In this document: in pieces, positions 57 through 16,579 of the stretch
Numbering within the stretch: position 1 is the stretch's first letter
How the letters are laid out: each line of letters starts with the position of its first letter
Virus record (IMG/VR): IMGVR_UViG_3300011254_000027
Coordinates: 1 to 22,131 of that record
Reading direction: 5' to 3' (one strand)
DNA length: 22,131 nucleotides
Origin: a virus
Position numbers and translations under genes: made by a program
The notes under the pieces: model-generated
Databases searched by the model: none
What the model saw: the letters and a program-made list of their open reading frames with translations, nothing else
Told to the model about the DNA's origin: nothing

Positions 57-114
57 ATTGATACCGCGACGACCTAGTTCTTCACTCTTTCCCTACACGA
101 CGCTCTTCCGATCT
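57..114 (+). other. Illumina P5/TruSeq adapter contamination
   Basis: Positions 57-114 align without gaps to the 58-base Illumina P5/universal adapter. I count 6 mismatches, all in the first 26 bases, and the last 32 bases (83-114, ending in CGCTCTTCCGATCT) are exact. Read on the minus strand, the adapter gives RSEERRVGKE, a known contaminant peptide in translated databases. Read on the plus strand it gives SSLFPYTTLFRS, also a known artefact. Real insert sequence starts at 115. Confidence 0.97.
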
Positions 115-3100
115 GGTGCCGTCTTTGCTAAAACTGACAATCTCGCCATCAGAGATTCCACGATTAAACCGTGCTGTTGCAGCACCACTACGAGAAAACT
201 GTGCGTTACCGTCTGCACGAAGTGCAATACCGCTTACGTCATTATTGGTGACAGGCAGGTTATCAGTAGTCCCCACCAGCAAGTTACCGCTGCTGTCGAT
301 GCGCATACGTTCTGCGTTTGCGGTCATGTCTTTAAACTCAAACTGACCGTCATTGCTGCTTATGTTTGTGCCAATCTTGTATCGTTTTGAAGAGCCACCT
401 TTATCATCAAAATCAATAGAACTTTCAGTGAGGCTATCTATTTTGAGGGTGGTGGGGGTTCCACCACTGTCTAGAGTAAGGGTTGTTGTAGGCGAACTCG
501 TGCCAATCCCAACATTACCGCTGCTGTCGATGCGCATGGCTTCATCCGCAGCGTTTAAACCGCCAGTTCTGAACTGCAAATCTGTTGCAGACATTAAATA
601 AGTACTATTACCAAATACGCTAAAACGTCCTTGCTGCCCCTCAGAATCATGAATTTGAACAGAGTTAGAGAGGTAGAGGTCTTTGAAGCGTTGTGATGAA
701 TGGCCTAGAGTAACAGTGCCATCTGCGGCTGCACCAGTGTTGCTTAGTGGCCTGACAGAAACATTTGAGTAAATACCTAATCCTGCGCCACTTGCAAATG
801 CACCGTACCACTTAAATTCGTTGCCAGAACTTCCAGAAGCAATACTCCCCACCGTGGTGCCGTCTTTCCAAAACTGAACAATGTCCCCATCTGACGTGTT
901 CCTGCGAATGTATACTGGAACACCATCATTTCTAGTAATATTTGTTTCACCGCTACTTTTTAATGCAATACCATTATTTGCAAAAGTAGTAACACTCTTA
1001 CCTACCAAGAGATTACCGCTGCTGTCTATGCGCATCTTCTCAGTGGGGGTATCAAGGTTGTTCGTTGTATAAAAAGACAATCCAACTTGATTAGATGTAC
1101 CACCCCTGTTTAAACCAATAGCACTGTACCTGTCTGTTGGCCTCCCGGCAGAAAGAGCAATATAGGGTGCGTCTGCATTTGCCCCTACAACACCTTCAAC
1201 AGAAATTAATTCACTAGGCGAACTCGTGCCAATCCCCAAGTTACCGCTTGTAATATTAAGACCACCAGTCATAGTATCGCCAGCTACTTCAACATAACGT
1301 GCATCTGACTGTAGTTTGGTATAGTGATCTGCAACTACGAATGTACCGTAAGCTACGATGTCCACTACGTCATTGACTGCAGCACCTGTGGTAAGCGTAA
1401 TGCTTGTACCGTTAGTGGCAGTGAAGTCAGTACCAGCAATAAGTTTAACACCGTTGAGGTACACATCTACATAGCCAGTGTCATAGGTAGCAGCAAAGAC
1501 TGTCTGACCTGCAGTGGCAGTGTAAGTGTTACGATCAGATGTACCATTGACAGCAGAACCAGCAGACTGCCAACCACTAGAACCATATACGTTCATAATA
1601 TTTGTAGTACTGTTAAAGTACAAAGCACCAATAACAAGTGCATCACCGTCATTATCTACTGTTGGTGCGGTAGACTTAGCTCCAAGGTAACGGTCATCAA
1701 AGTTATCATAGGATGCAGCGGCATTAGCTTCACTGGTAGCTGCAGCACTAGCTGAGTTACTTGCATTAGTTTCGCTTGTTGCTGCATTGCTTTCAGATGT
1801 AGCTGCTGCAGCGGCACTTGCACTAGCGGCAGTGGCACTACCAAGGATACCATCAACGTATGTCTTAGATGTAGCATCGTTAGCATCTGTAGGAGCAGCC
1901 AAGCCAGTTACTTTGTTGGAACCCATTGCAAGGTTGCCAGACATAGTATCACCAGCTTTAGCTACACGGGTATCACGCTGTGTGTCTGTATATACTTTTG
2001 TAGCTACGTCCTGTGCCGCTGTAGGATCACCTGCACCAGTGATCTTATTAGTGGACATGGCAATAGCACCAGTCATTGTACCACCAGCAAGAGGAAGCTT
2101 AGTGGCAATGCTGTTGGTTACTGTAGTAGCAAAGTCAGGGTCATCACCCAAAGCTGCAGCAAGCTCATTAAGAGTATCGAGTGTACCCGGTGCTGAATCT
2201 ACGAGGTTAGATACTTGTGTGTCTACATAGCCCTTAGTGGCTGCATCATTTGTATTAGTAGGTGAGGTAAGGTTAGTGATGGTAGCAGTTGTACCAGCAT
2301 TCATGTTCAGTGTACCATCAATGGTCACGTTGTTGAATGTGGATGTACCAGCAGAAGTTACATTACCTGTAAGGTCACCTGTTACATTTCCTGTTACAGT
2401 ACCACCCGACAGGTTACCCGTAACATTACCAGTCACGTTACCTGTTAGGTTAGCTGTAACACCACCAGAGGCCGTTACTGTAGTGAAGGCACCAGTAGAC
2501 GCAGAGCTTGCACCGATAGTGGCTCCGTCAATAGTACCGCCATTAATATCCGCTGTAGCTAGTGTAGCTTGACCAGAGGTAGTCAGTGTAGTGAAGCTAC
2601 CAGCGGCAGTACCTACAGCACCGATTACAGTACCGTCAATGTTACCACCGTTGATGTCTACAGTATTAAGTGTAGCTTGGCCTGTGGACTGCAGTGTAGT
2701 GAACTTACCAGTAGTGTGGCTAGTAGCACCAATAGTAGTACCATCAATAGTACCACCGTTAATGTCTGCAGTAGCTGCAGTCAGGCTTGTGTTAGCGTTA
2801 AGAGTAGTGAATGTACCAGCGGCAGGTGTAGCTGCACCAATAACTGAGTTGTCAATAGTACCAGAGTTAATGTCACCAGATGTAATGACTGTTGTACCTG
2901 TGGCAGAAAGGTCAACTGCATCAAGATCAGAGAAGGTAGAAGTGCCAGTGGATGTAACATTACCAGTCAAATCACCAGTAATATCACCTGTTACGTTACC
3001 TGTCAAGTTACCTGTGATATTAGCTACGACACCAGCAGGTGCAGTGATAACGCCAGTTACGTTAAGAGTGCCAGCTACTGTAGCATTTTCATGTACTGCA

Positions 3101-3474
3101 AGTGTGTCAATGTAACCGATGCCATCAATGTACAAGTCTTTAAACTCAGAACCTGTAGCACCAAGGTCAATGTCATTGTCTGTGATAGGGCGGATAACAC
3201 CATCACGAATACTAATCTGTTCTACAGGTACACCAGCTACTTCAACGTAGAAGTCTACAGTGTTTGAACCTGTGTTTACCTGTACTTTATTGTTAGCATC
3301 TAGGTCAGCAATCAGGGGTACGTATTCACCTTCACCTGTTGTACCGTCATGCTTGTGACCGCCTGTAGCAGCAAAGGCATCACGTAGAGCGTTATACTCA
3401 GCGTTAATAGGAGCAGCACGTACCGTTGCGGTAGGAATGATGTCTGCTGTAGATTGTCTTGTATAACCTGCCAC
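115..3474 (-). CDS. Tail fibre protein, C-terminus missing
   Basis: This is the distal tail gene, cut at the adapter junction, so about 1,120 residues remain and the true C-terminus is unknown. The start is GTG at 3474 with GGAG seven bases upstream, inside the end of the preceding gene. The N-terminal ~60 residues (MAGYTRQSTADIIPTATV, then GGHKHDG) look like the virion-attachment part of podovirus fibres. Residues 151-181 are TGN[VL]/TGD repeats. Residues 201-344 are four 36-residue repeats. Then come two NDAATK/YVDTQ-like segments, an Ala/Ser-rich coiled-coil-like stretch (about 550-600) and repeated MRIDSSGN[LV] blocks. The last phage residues, SDGEIVSFSKDGT, match an upstream copy (SDGDIVQFWKDGT) that continues with TVGSI, so at least one more repeat is probably lost. 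It presumably binds the host surface. The receptor cannot be inferred. Confidence 0.85.
2443..2874 (-). repeat. Four tandem 36-residue (108-bp) repeats in tail fibre
   Basis: Residues 201-344 of the fibre are four consecutive 36-residue units beginning DINSGTIDNSVIGA, DINGGTIDGTTIGA, DINGGNIDGTVIGA and DINGGTIDGATIGA. Each contains a FTT[LV] motif near unit position 22. The units diverge in DNA but keep exact length, as expected for a repetitive beta-structured shaft. Confidence 0.85.
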
Positions 3475-13597: not shown

Positions 13598-13877
13598 TTC
13601 GCCTTTTTAAGCCTGTATGGCCTATACTACGACCAGTTTCTCTGCTTAGCCAGTGGGCTACTGCACGATAACTATACTGCTTTAAGTGGCGCTTGGCAAG
13701 TTCTAAAGCTTCTAGTTCAGACTCAATAGGTACAAGTAGTTTGTCGTTGTCAGGATGCAGCTCGTAACCAAAGGGGATACGTTTTGTTACCCTTACAATG
13801 GTATGCCACTTCTTGTTATGGTTCTTTGGCGGTAACGGTAGCTGCCAAAAACCTAGATCTCTTTCAGGTATTATTAT
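13458..13877 (-). CDS. Helix-turn-helix protein lacking a standard start codon
   Basis: Between the terminase subunits a 139-codon frame reads like a real protein. It has an N-terminal segment ERDLGFWQLPLPPKN, a resolvase-like helix-turn-helix (YSYRAVAHWLSRETGR, then IGHTGLKRRI), and a basic coiled-coil tail (KLAKWLKETLEEIEKLEAK). I recall similar proteins next to terL in other podophages. It contains no ATG, GTG or TTG. A run of three ATA codons begins at 13877, overlapping the small-terminase stop, nine bases after AGAAGG (13892-13887). Options are initiation at AUA, a -1 frameshift from the small terminase (this frame is open from 13946), a sequencing error in ATG, or loss of the gene. It could be a DNA-recognition packaging factor or a regulator. 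Confidence 0.65.
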   Translation of the reverse strand: MIIPERDLGFWQLPLPPKNHNKKWHTIVRVTKRIPFGYELHPDNDKLLVPIESELEALELAKRHLKQYSYRAVAHWLSRETGRSIGHTGLKRRIEVEQRRKKTIAIKRKLAKWLKETLEEIEKLEAKGVGAYAEIDRDS

Positions 13878-14242
13878 TCGTTTGAACCTTCTTTTGGTGG
13901 CAGGTAGAATATGCCCCCGCCAGATGTTACGTCTACTTTGTCTACCTTACCAAGTCCTGCACGATCAAGCAAGTCTTTTGCTGCAATCATCTTCTCTTTA
14001 ATGCCTAACTCTGTAGGGTCATACAAAGCACCTACCATAGCCATAGCAGCCTTAGGGGCAGTACGAGCAAAGTAAGTACGTGTCTTGTCACCAATCTCAT
14101 CCTTGAGAGCCTCAACAATAGCAGAAGTGCTTGAAGCAGGATCATACCCTGCAAGCTTCTTAGCTGCTACTGCATCACCGTTAGCCTCATCAAAGAGTAC
14201 TTCTAAGAAGCGTTGCTGCTTTTCTGTTAATGCTCGTGCCAT
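13874..14242 (-). CDS. terS: Terminase small subunit
   Basis: This 122-residue protein sits two genes upstream of the large terminase. The N-terminal region (LTEKQQRFLEVLFDEANGDA, then AAKKLAGYD) resembles the DNA-binding helix-turn-helix of small terminases that recognise the packaging site. The middle (IKEKMIAAKDLLDRAGLGK) resembles the oligomerisation helices. The tail GGGIFYLPPKE is a C-terminal pattern I associate with this protein in podophages and could contact the large subunit. The start ATG 14242 has AGGA at a spacing of seven. The stop overlaps the possible AUA start of the next frame. Confidence 0.7.
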   Translation of the reverse strand: MARALTEKQQRFLEVLFDEANGDAVAAKKLAGYDPASSTSAIVEALKDEIGDKTRTYFARTAPKAAMAMVGALYDPTELGIKEKMIAAKDLLDRAGLGKVDKVDVTSGGGIFYLPPKEGSNE

Positions 14243-14252
14243 TGGTACTTCC

Positions 14253-14834
14253 TTATAGTGGATTATCGGCTAGTTCATCATACGCTTTCCAGATATCATC
14301 TACTTCTGTTTGTAGAGTGTCTAGCGTATCGCCTAGTCCATCTGTAATAGTTGTAGCCTTATCCACTTGGCTACGAAGGTCTAGTAGCAGCTTCTGCTGC
14401 TCTAGGATCTGCTGCATGTTTGTAGTAAGCTGGGCAAGCTTCTGGTTCAAACCACGTACATCGTTATCTGCGATAGCCTGCTCTAATGTTTGTATACGAG
14501 ATACGAGCTTAGCTTCTAGCTCCTGAGACTTAGATAGCAGTAAGGAGTCAAGCGCTACAATCTCACCACTAAGGTTATTGTTAACCTGTGTAAGGTTGCG
14601 CTGGGCGTCTGTCTCTACAGATGTAACACGCTTGTCTAGCTGACCAGCTTTAGCGTCAAAGGATGCAGACTTATCTACAACCTCTGCAATACCAGCCTCA
14701 ACACCGTAGAAGCGTTGCAGTGTATCGTAAGACCACCACACACCACCTGCAACGGAAGAAAGAACTGGAAGTGCTACTGCAACCATCCAGCCCTTAATGT
14801 TGTAACCGCCTACGCTAAACTCAAAGTCCATCAT
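14253..14834 (-). CDS. Membrane-anchored coiled-coil protein (possible spanin)
   Basis: This 193-residue protein has one N-terminal membrane segment (about residues 16-34, WMVAVALPVLSSVAGGVWW). A long periplasm-facing coiled coil follows (about 40-180) with regular Leu/Gln/Ser spacing (LSGEIVALDSLLLSKSQELE, NQKLAQLTTNMQQILEQQK). The N-in, single-pass, coiled-coil architecture is that of an inner-membrane spanin, though phage Rz is shorter (about 153 residues) and no lysis enzyme is adjacent. ATG 14834 overlaps the upstream stop as ATGA. It could also be a holin-associated or superinfection-related membrane protein. Confidence 0.55.
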   Translation of the reverse strand: MMDFEFSVGGYNIKGWMVAVALPVLSSVAGGVWWSYDTLQRFYGVEAGIAEVVDKSASFDAKAGQLDKRVTSVETDAQRNLTQVNNNLSGEIVALDSLLLSKSQELEAKLVSRIQTLEQAIADNDVRGLNQKLAQLTTNMQQILEQQKLLLDLRSQVDKATTITDGLGDTLDTLQTEVDDIWKAYDELADNPL

Positions 14835-15667
14835 TGTGTTGGCATTGCCCCATACTCATTAATGTATTCACCTGCAGCGTAGATCTCTGCGGCGTTCTTC
14901 ATGTCAGGAGTCAAGTAACCCTGAAAGCCTGTACCAAACCCGGAGTCATTCCAAGTAATAACGAACTCATCAACTGACTGAGTGTAGGTGATAGCTGTGT
15001 AGCTACCTACCATGTAGTTACCCTGTGCGGCATAGGTGTCTACAGTAGCAGTAAGTTCATCGTTATTAGCAGCAGCCATGAAAGCACCTGCTTGTTGTGC
15101 AAATGTCTCAACAGCGACTACAGCTTCATTGTATTCATTAACTTCTGCTGAGTCAAGGCTGTATGCGTCTGTCTCTAACATACCCTGTAGTTCAACCTGT
15201 TCAGGTTTAGTATCTGCCTCTGCTGCTGTAGAAGCTACTTCAACCGCTGTCATAACTACAGCCGTAGCAGCAGTAAGATTATCTACTGCAGTGTCCAAGC
15301 TGTTCATGTTAGCTGCGTGTTCCTGCATAAACATCTGCTCTGCTGTCTCAGCAATAGCGTAGTCATGCTGCAGTACAAGATCTTTAGCTTCTAAGTATGC
15401 ACCTAGTTCCTCTGTAGTAATGATACCAGCATTGAGTGCATCATCATTAATAACACCACCAATAGCAGCATAACCTACAGCACCTACAGTTAAAACTGCA
15501 CTATCCGTTATGCGGTCTTGGATATCACTAATAGAAGCGATAAGCATGTCGATCTTTTCTTGTCCCGTCAGTGAATAATCAGGGGGTGGCAACGACTCTG
15601 CGTTTACTGCTACGGAAACGGTCACTAAGGCTGAGCTTAGGAGTATCGTCTTCAATGTTCTCTTCAT
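14831..15667 (-). CDS. Exported protein with signal peptide
   Basis: I do not recognise the family. This 278-residue protein begins with a clear Sec signal peptide (MKRTLKTILLSSALVTVSVA, likely cleaved after VNA, residue 23). The mature part is acidic and Ala/Thr/Val-rich, with helical stretches (about 85-200) and an aromatic C-terminal region (YTAITYTQSVDEFVITWNDS). No membrane anchor or catalytic motif is visible. It is probably periplasmic or outer-membrane associated. Start ATG 15667 has AGAGGA at a spacing of eight and lies 89 bases inside the upstream gene in another frame. Its stop is coupled by ATGA to the coiled-coil membrane protein, so the two may act together at the envelope. Confidence 0.7.
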   Translation of the reverse strand: MKRTLKTILLSSALVTVSVAVNAESLPPPDYSLTGQEKIDMLIASISDIQDRITDSAVLTVGAVGYAAIGGVINDDALNAGIITTEELGAYLEAKDLVLQHDYAIAETAEQMFMQEHAANMNSLDTAVDNLTAATAVVMTAVEVASTAAEADTKPEQVELQGMLETDAYSLDSAEVNEYNEAVVAVETFAQQAGAFMAAANNDELTATVDTYAAQGNYMVGSYTAITYTQSVDEFVITWNDSGFGTGFQGYLTPDMKNAAEIYAAGEYINEYGAMPTQ

Positions 15668-16301
15668 CTGTGTCTTCCTCTCCTACCCTTAAAAGGGTAT
15701 CCCAAAACTCTGTGTCAAGTTCATACCCAACTATGTAAAGCGCTGGACTCTCTCTGTACTTTTTTATTGCTGCCTTCCCCATGAGCAGCTTTCCCGTCTT
15801 ACTGTCGTTGATAGGGCATGGTGTATTCGCTAACATCATACTCCTGAACACGACAGGATCTTGGCATAATACAGATATAGCTGATACCTGTAATCCTAAG
15901 CCACCTACTTGCTGTGGTGCGCCTAAGAGCCTAGCATTCTTGCGTCTGTTACAAGACTCATCCTGTTGCATAGCGCCACGAGATATACCAATGATGCTAA
16001 CCTGTATTCCTGTAGAGCTAGGCAGTAAGCAACTATCGTTACCTCCACCGCCCATCATAGTAGGTGCTATCGCACTCATGACAGGAGCAGCACTCCCAGC
16101 ACCAGTAGCATTGTAGTTGTTAGTCACAGTCTCGTCAGTGTTGTTACTGTCTACAGTAGAGTTATCGTAACCATTAGAGAAGTCACCAGTAACATCACCA
16201 GCCTGCGCAGTCATCCCCAATAACATCACGGAGATCAGGGTCACTGCACATAAGCTGTAGAGCGGCATCTTTCTGACCGATGTATGTAAGAGTTTGTGCA
16301 T
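15579..16301 (-). CDS. Exported Cys-containing protein
   Basis: This 240-residue protein has an N-terminal signal peptide ending TAQA (cleavage after residue 34). I keep ATG 16301 rather than Met12 because the Lys/Arg residues of the n-region lie before Met12. After an Asn/Thr/Asp-rich spacer (about 40-65) and a GGGG run comes a Cys-bearing domain (about 85-165: SCLLPSSTGIQVSIIGISRG, CNRRKNARLLG, AISVLCQDPVVF, NTPCP). A charged C-terminus ends it. The Cys pattern resembles that of the upstream small lipoprotein. I recall loosely similar exported proteins in marine podophages with unknown function. It overlaps the upstream gene by 107 bases and the downstream gene by 89 bases, all out of frame. 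Confidence 0.65.
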   Translation of the reverse strand: MHKLLHTSVRKMPLYSLCAVTLISVMLLGMTAQAGDVTGDFSNGYDNSTVDSNNTDETVTNNYNATGAGSAAPVMSAIAPTMMGGGGNDSCLLPSSTGIQVSIIGISRGAMQQDESCNRRKNARLLGAPQQVGGLGLQVSAISVLCQDPVVFRSMMLANTPCPINDSKTGKLLMGKAAIKKYRESPALYIVGYELDTEFWDTLLRVGEEDTDEENIEDDTPKLSLSDRFRSSKRRVVATP

Positions 16302-16434
16302 CTAAGTTCCGTTGGCATTTGCTATCATTAGCAGGGCAAGAGGAAGGCAAGACCACATTTGAATTACTACATGCTGTAGTTATACTCATACAAATCAGTA
16401 ATGCAAGACTATTTGAACGATTCAGCCACGACAT
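16195..16434 (-). CDS. Small putative lipoprotein with Cys motif
   Basis: This 79-residue protein has N-terminal positive charge (Arg6), a short hydrophobic segment (SLALLICMSI) and TTAC at residues 19-22, a possible though atypical lipobox (Thr rather than Leu at -3). The mature part carries SSCPANDSKCQ, LQLMCSDPDLRDVIGDDC and ends GW. The start chosen is ATG 16434 with GGTGA at a spacing of eight. The frame is open further upstream to 16512, but that extension lies within the DUF1127 gene. It overlaps that gene by 26 bases and the next by 107. It could be an outer-membrane spanin-like or immunity lipoprotein. Confidence 0.5.
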   Translation of the reverse strand: MSWLNRSNSLALLICMSITTACSNSNVVLPSSCPANDSKCQRNLDAQTLTYIGQKDAALQLMCSDPDLRDVIGDDCAGW

Positions 16435-16579
16435 TGCGGATGTCACCACGTGCGATACCGATGTCATGAAGTTCTTTGTCTGACATGTTAGTGAGAATCC
16501 AGTAGTCTGCACGAGCTTGTTGTGCCTTTTGTAAGCTTGCCAAGAAGTCTGTGAATGTTTTGATGATAAGTGCGAACAT
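16409..16579 (-). CDS. DUF1127-like (YjiS-like) small protein
   Basis: This 56-residue protein has an amphipathic N-terminal helix (MFALIIKTFTDFLASLQKAQ) and the C-terminal core LTNMSDKELHDIGIARGDIR. The core matches the DUF1127 pattern of L..L.D..L.DIG..R.DI. Such proteins are mostly bacterial and abundant in alphaproteobacteria. CcaF1 of Rhodobacter sphaeroides is reported to bind RNA and affect RNA maturation and turnover. A phage copy might alter host RNA metabolism, which is inference. The start is ATG 16579 behind AGGAAA. An upstream ATG at 16639 would add 20 unrelated residues spanning a hairpin, so I reject it. Confidence 0.7.
   Translation of the reverse strand: MFALIIKTFTDFLASLQKAQQARADYWILTNMSDKELHDIGIARGDIRNVVAESFK

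Follow-up and report, generated by a model that had tools for sequence, protein, structure and literature searches.

The block of overlapping genes beside the terminase small subunit gene (TerS) of a marine phage encodes proteins that appear to be destined for the host envelope, and it raises the question of what such a set of proteins would do during infection. The window, by which we mean the whole stretch of 22,131 nucleotides that was analysed, is part of a 25.6 kb virus record (IMG/VR IMGVR_UViG_3300011254_000027) of an HMO-2011-type roseophage, and its TerS is 90% identical to that of Roseobacter phage CRP-207. Illumina TruSeq adapter sequence (an exact 20-base match) lies within the record at window positions 83-115, and the first ~82 bases have probably been joined artificially, which would make the 3' end of the tail-fibre frame 82-3474 an artefact. 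A preliminary description had reported five consecutive frames that overlap out of frame, had read them as one envelope module, and had suggested a role in lysis or in blocking superinfection. Recomputation recovered all five frames on the minus strand with overlaps of 26, 107, 89 and 4 bases (Table 1). Signal peptides were called by rule, requiring a charged n-region, a hydrophobic core and an AXA or lipobox site; by this rule g3 has the site AQA, g2 the site VNA, and g4 a lipobox. We propose, with a probability of roughly 0.55, that four of these genes, g4 to g1, encode a spanin-like envelope module of marine phages that acts at lysis.

Table 1. Features of the module and its borders in the window.
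Feature	Coordinates	Strand	Remarks
DUF1127 protein	16409..16579	-	Pfam PF06568, E 6e-8; neighbour, outside the module
g4, small outer-membrane lipoprotein (putative), 79 aa	16195..16434	-	lipobox ITTA|C at residue 22, then four-cysteine domain
g3, Sec-exported cysteine-domain protein (predicted), 240 aa	15579..16301	-	signal peptide MHKLL...GMTAQA|GD
g2, Sec-exported, mostly helical periplasmic protein (predicted), 278 aa	14831..15667	-	signal peptide MKRTLKT...SVAVNA|E
g1, membrane helix (~17-33) and long coiled coil, 193 aa	14253..14834	-	ends in conserved NPL
g4/g3 overlap, 107 bases	16195..16301	-	g4 C-terminal Cys domain and g3 signal peptide, in different frames
g3/g2 overlap, 89 bases	15579..15667	-	g3 C terminus and g2 signal peptide, in different frames
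Terminase small subunit (TerS)	13874..14242	-	PHROG 2538, E 8.5e-5; downstream border of the slot

The module consists of four genes, g4-g3-g2-g1, and not five. In the relatives examined these four remain together at two alternative sites. At the first (46 of the 73 loci, the window among them) the module lies between DUF1127 and TerS; at the second (27/73, CRP-207 included) it is ~2 kb away from TerS, with a series of small genes downstream of it, and DUF1127 directly adjoins TerS. Because DUF1127 stays beside TerS when the module is displaced, it belongs to the TerS neighbourhood, and a five-gene unit that includes it is ruled out. Its overlap with g4 varies across loci, from -2 to 35. The site of the module has switched about three times, whether read from the tree of the module or from that of TerS, and the window and CRP-207, which hold it at different sites, share 81% identity in g3 and 86% in g2. 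The earlier reading of these genes as an exported envelope module conserved as a unit is thus upheld for four genes, with DUF1127 excluded. The position of the module among structural and packaging genes would also accommodate virion proteins of the tail or of DNA ejection, but the block moves independently of the structural genes, and two cleavable Sec signals and a lipobox are unsuited to cytoplasmic virion assembly; we regard this reading as extremely unlikely.

The long overlaps within the module exceed chance. Of 85 loci, 80 have a g4/g3 overlap of exactly 107 bases; g3 and g2 share 68-161 bases in all but one locus (where g3 is broken), a length that is always 2 mod 3, and the g2/g1 overlap is 4 or 1 bases in all but one. 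When the upstream gene was shuffled synonymously and the downstream frame scored for openness, that frame was open in 7.7% of the g4/g3 shuffles against 49 of 50 distinct overlaps observed, and in 20% of the g3/g2 shuffles against 53 of 53, a contrast that is large though the related sequences compared are non-independent. The hydrophobic core of the overprinted signal likewise lies above the shuffle expectation, at 2.39 versus 1.70 for g4/g3 and 2.12 versus 1.31 for g3/g2. The signal peptide of g3 is coded wholly inside g4 and that of g2 inside the 3' end of g3. Overlaps of ~70 bases that code for the next signal peptide recur where three other families, F21, F26 and F55, occupy the middle position, and are absent from most loci whose middle gene is of the pelagiphage family F28. 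Overprinting of a signal peptide on the 3' end of the gene before it recurs from protein to protein, its phase being constant in the group of the window, and long overlaps occur with four unrelated middle-gene families. A promoter scan of the module region gave a result no better than shuffles. At one locus (L081 2988-3912), g3 is broken after 27 codons and its remainder is open in another frame, reflecting a frameshift or a sequencing error.

The protein families provide further definition of the module. One g3 copy occurs in each of 36 records, and residues C91, C117, C146 and C162 are invariant in 64 sequences. The family corresponds to PHROG 20531 (function unassigned), which 62 of 64 relatives match and whose entry carries no link to g4, g2 or g1. 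Profile comparison identifies g4 as paralogous to the cysteine domain of g3 (prob 95.9, E 6e-9); the lipobox cysteine of g4 and four further cysteines are invariant in 23 relatives. The lipobox of g4 passes the PROSITE PS51257 rule together with a hydrophobic core. Under the strict rule, and with the start codons as we chose them, 38 of 82 g4 relatives pass, and the g4 of CRP-207 does not. The AlphaFold models of g3 (pLDDT 59) and g2 (pLDDT 74, helical) gave no fold match in the PDB, their profiles gave no match among PDB sequences, and the matches of g2 in BFVD are unnamed or uncharacterised viral proteins. The g1 family ends in NP[LM], with N-P invariant in 20 diverse members. A literature search did not find the module described.

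Beyond the close relatives of the window, the second of the two exported proteins is exchangeable. Of 163 g3 loci, 137 have a member of the g1 family nearby, in 121 cases at position +2, and the gene between is swapped among loci: g2, always directly after g3, in 111, F21 in 12, F26 and F28 in 9 each, and F55 in 4. This wider core of g3, an exchangeable exported protein and g1 recurs in SAR11, T4-like and freshwater phages. Cultured carriers of g3 include CRP-207, CRP-810, HTVC023P, HTVC033P, HTVC115P, HTVC202P, Baldr and the T4-like Mosig; the gene is also present in the uncultured Autographiviridae genome S28-C10, and a scan of a genome collection gave 12 loci, mostly in metagenome bins. Such swapping among at least four unrelated exported families would suit a larger apparatus in the outer membrane or at the surface (for secretion, or a pore or appendage) that serves egress or late functions and has g3, the middle protein and g1 as its core. 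Some middle proteins are very long and acidic or have annotated carbohydrate-binding domains, F26-type loci carry the further exported proteins F27, F34 and F35, and envelope apparatus in pelagiphages has a precedent in phage curli pores (PMC9599517, PMC9004378). However, no secretion or pilus family was matched in Pfam, and an apparatus of this kind seems to us unlikely, if worth keeping in view. The curli/T8SS genes of pelagiphages (CsgG, CsgF) resemble the module in encoding exported envelope proteins in marine phages, and were once proposed to act in lysis timing, but they are different genes with a different architecture; a curli/CsgGF link was rejected for want of a Pfam match in the module proteins or in the pelagiphage middle and coiled-coil proteins. 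In the F26-type loci (L165 7170-8457; similar L156, L159, L162), the three additional genes follow the middle gene and precede or lie near g1. By eye F27 is like a spore-coat-U pilin and F34 like a fimbrial chaperone, neither with a Pfam match, and these loci possibly encode a larger envelope structure.

The guess of a lysis function made in the preliminary description was a good one, as seen from the TerS slot and from the lysis genes near the module in relatives. A role in lysis is suggested, first, because lysis genes fill the slot in close relatives that lack the module, these relatives having been picked by TerS and not by their lysis genes. In HMO-2011, a holin-like protein and a Phage_lysozyme (PF00959, 1.5e-12) are encoded just upstream of TerS. 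The slot of CRP-345 holds genes for an EF-hand membrane protein, a protein with a lipobox and a C-terminal TM (gp68, annotated spanin2) and an endolysin, and that of CRP-1 an EF-hand protein, an endolysin and the same lipobox/TM type (gp54); the Peptidase_M15_4 match of both endolysins falls below the family cut-off. DUF1127 stands just before the lysis cassette in CRP-345, as it does before the module in the window. Not every slot can be recognised as a lysis cassette: in CRP-2 and CRP-235 it encodes other small membrane proteins.

A lysis role is suggested, second, because holin and endolysin genes directly adjoin the module in more distant relatives. In L106 a GTA_holin_3TM (3e-16) and a GH108 endolysin (7e-27) come after the four genes, and L108 is alike; in L100 the four genes precede an EF-hand protein, a holin-like protein and GH108 (6e-30); in L127, g3-g2-g1 precede an M15 endolysin and a GTA holin. 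Lysis genes also lie within a few genes of the module in L128 (M15), L168 and ctXG6705 (holin, lysozyme), HTVC033P (amidase), HTVC023P (M15) and Mosig (GTA holin). The earlier statement that no endolysin or holin lies beside these genes is correct for the window, where none was recognised near the module, and does not extend to relatives such as these. Third, a holin or endolysin domain lies within 3 kb of g3 more often than under the null: in 12 of the 20 records having one (null mean 3.4, P < 5e-5) and, after removing relatives, in 8 of 15 (null 2.0, P 4e-4), families having been picked for this statistic after some neighbourhoods were already seen. A recognised lysis gene is far from the module in the other 8 of the 20 records. 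In CRP-810 a holin and a GH108 endolysin are 25 kb away, and no spanin was seen beside them.

The slot and the neighbourhood would also fit an accessory of lysis timing or wall modification, in which g2 and g3 would act on peptidoglycan or restrain lysis in an antiholin-like manner and the outer membrane would not be the target. In its favour, no stand-alone endolysin was recognised in phages of the window type (the window and CRP-207). Against it, g2 and g3 match no hydrolase family, and an outer-membrane lipoprotein would not be required; we consider it quite improbable. The only peptidoglycan-hydrolase candidate found in CRP-207 is gp43 (L095 24210-25826), a structural-module protein with a weak GH19 (chitinase-type lysozyme) match, E 1.2e-5, below the family cut-off.

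Among the proteins known for superinfection exclusion are small periplasmic ones and lipoproteins, and the secreted proteins and lipoprotein of the module could protect the envelope by blocking the adsorption or DNA entry of competing phages. That the module is accessory, being missing from several HMO-2011-type phages, is consistent with exclusion. Its place among late packaging, structural and lysis genes speaks against this, as does its presence in single copy per phage across very different phages, and a four-part complex would be unusual for this purpose; exclusion is in our judgement improbable.

The reading that we favour is a spanin-like one. The g1 protein would be held by the inner membrane and extend its coiled coil into the periplasm, to which g2 and g3 would be secreted, and g4 would be a lipoprotein of the outer membrane. 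Co-expressed and used at the end of infection, these proteins may form a complex that spans the periplasm and, after the inner membrane and wall have been breached, helps to open the outer membrane as well; the role would be like that of a spanin, divided over four proteins instead of one or two. This reading is further favoured because a lipoprotein, an inner-membrane coiled coil and out-of-frame overlaps are typical of spanins, and because g4 is the only ORF of at least 50 aa, in any frame of the window, that satisfies PS51257 with a hydrophobic core, complete CRP-207 having no lipobox CDS besides g4 that we could find.

The two-component spanins (lambda Rz/Rz1, T7 gp18.5/18.7, P2 LysB/LysC) share with the module an outer-membrane lipoprotein, here the g4 of the window as identified by PS51257, that contains cysteine, a coiled-coil protein of the inner membrane (in the module g1, putatively), out-of-frame overlaps, and a lysis-cassette neighbourhood, which the module has in relatives and in the slot of close kin and not inside the window. 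With a single N-terminal hydrophobic helix followed by a coiled coil, g1 may take the N-in/C-out topology of the inner-membrane subunit of spanins, whose periplasmic domain is often a coiled coil. The module differs in that the lipoprotein gene comes first and two more genes for exported proteins, which known spanins do not need, precede the coiled-coil gene. As a consequence g4 and g1 are separated by ~1.4 kb, with g3 and g2 between, and are neither adjacent, overlapping nor embedded as spanin genes are; the widest gap between subunit genes in a published spanin survey is ~1 kb (PMC6139136). The matches of g4 to O_Spanin_T7 (E 0.055) and to PHROG 456, Rz-like (E 0.048), are weak and driven by the lipobox, g1 matches no known spanin family, and neither by sequence nor by fold was the module as a whole matched to a spanin. 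As judged by sequence match and gene adjacency, then, the module would fall outside the known spanin families, and we do not claim membership. Proteins resembling unimolecular spanins (T1 gp11 type), namely CRP-345 gp68 and CRP-1 gp54, fill the slot at TerS that holds the module in the window. They differ from g4, which has no C-terminal membrane helix, in that anchoring in the module is divided between g4 and g1, and no ORF combining a lipobox with a C-terminal membrane helix was found in the window or CRP-207.

In a survey of phages with Gram-negative hosts about 13%, many of them marine, had no identifiable spanin, and spanin starts are known to be missed by gene callers (PMC6139136). Tentatively, and with the odds somewhat against it, the module may represent an unrecognised but widespread class of phage lysis system, in which a complex of three to four proteins spans the periplasm and takes the place of spanins in phages that infect SAR11, roseobacters and freshwater bacteria. 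Such a complex would comprise a cysteine-domain protein, sometimes accompanied by its lipoprotein paralogue, an exchangeable exported middle protein, and a coiled coil that is anchored in the membrane and ends in NPL. The module is a concrete and testable candidate for opening the outer membrane in abundant ocean phages.

The module also accounts for genes that have been overlooked in public genomes and for 'lysozyme' labels that are incorrect there. The g4 of CRP-207 is unannotated (L083 about 1728-1940), and the annotated g2 starts of CRP-207 and CRP-810 omit the signal peptide. The g1 coiled coils of CRP-207 (L083 3292-3873) and CRP-810 (L084 12647-13069) are labelled 'lysozyme', which we reject, as no lysozyme (PF00959) match was obtained in those records; the 'OmpA family' label of the CRP-810 g3 was likewise set aside, its homologue in the window being without Pfam support. 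Finally, a small EF-hand protein with a membrane helix, F20 (L083 3870-4226, L185 3862-4182, L182 2766-3080), recurs beside holins, endolysins and the module in roseophages, has relatives in Melnitz phages and HTVC008M, and is a possible holin or calcium-responsive lysis factor.
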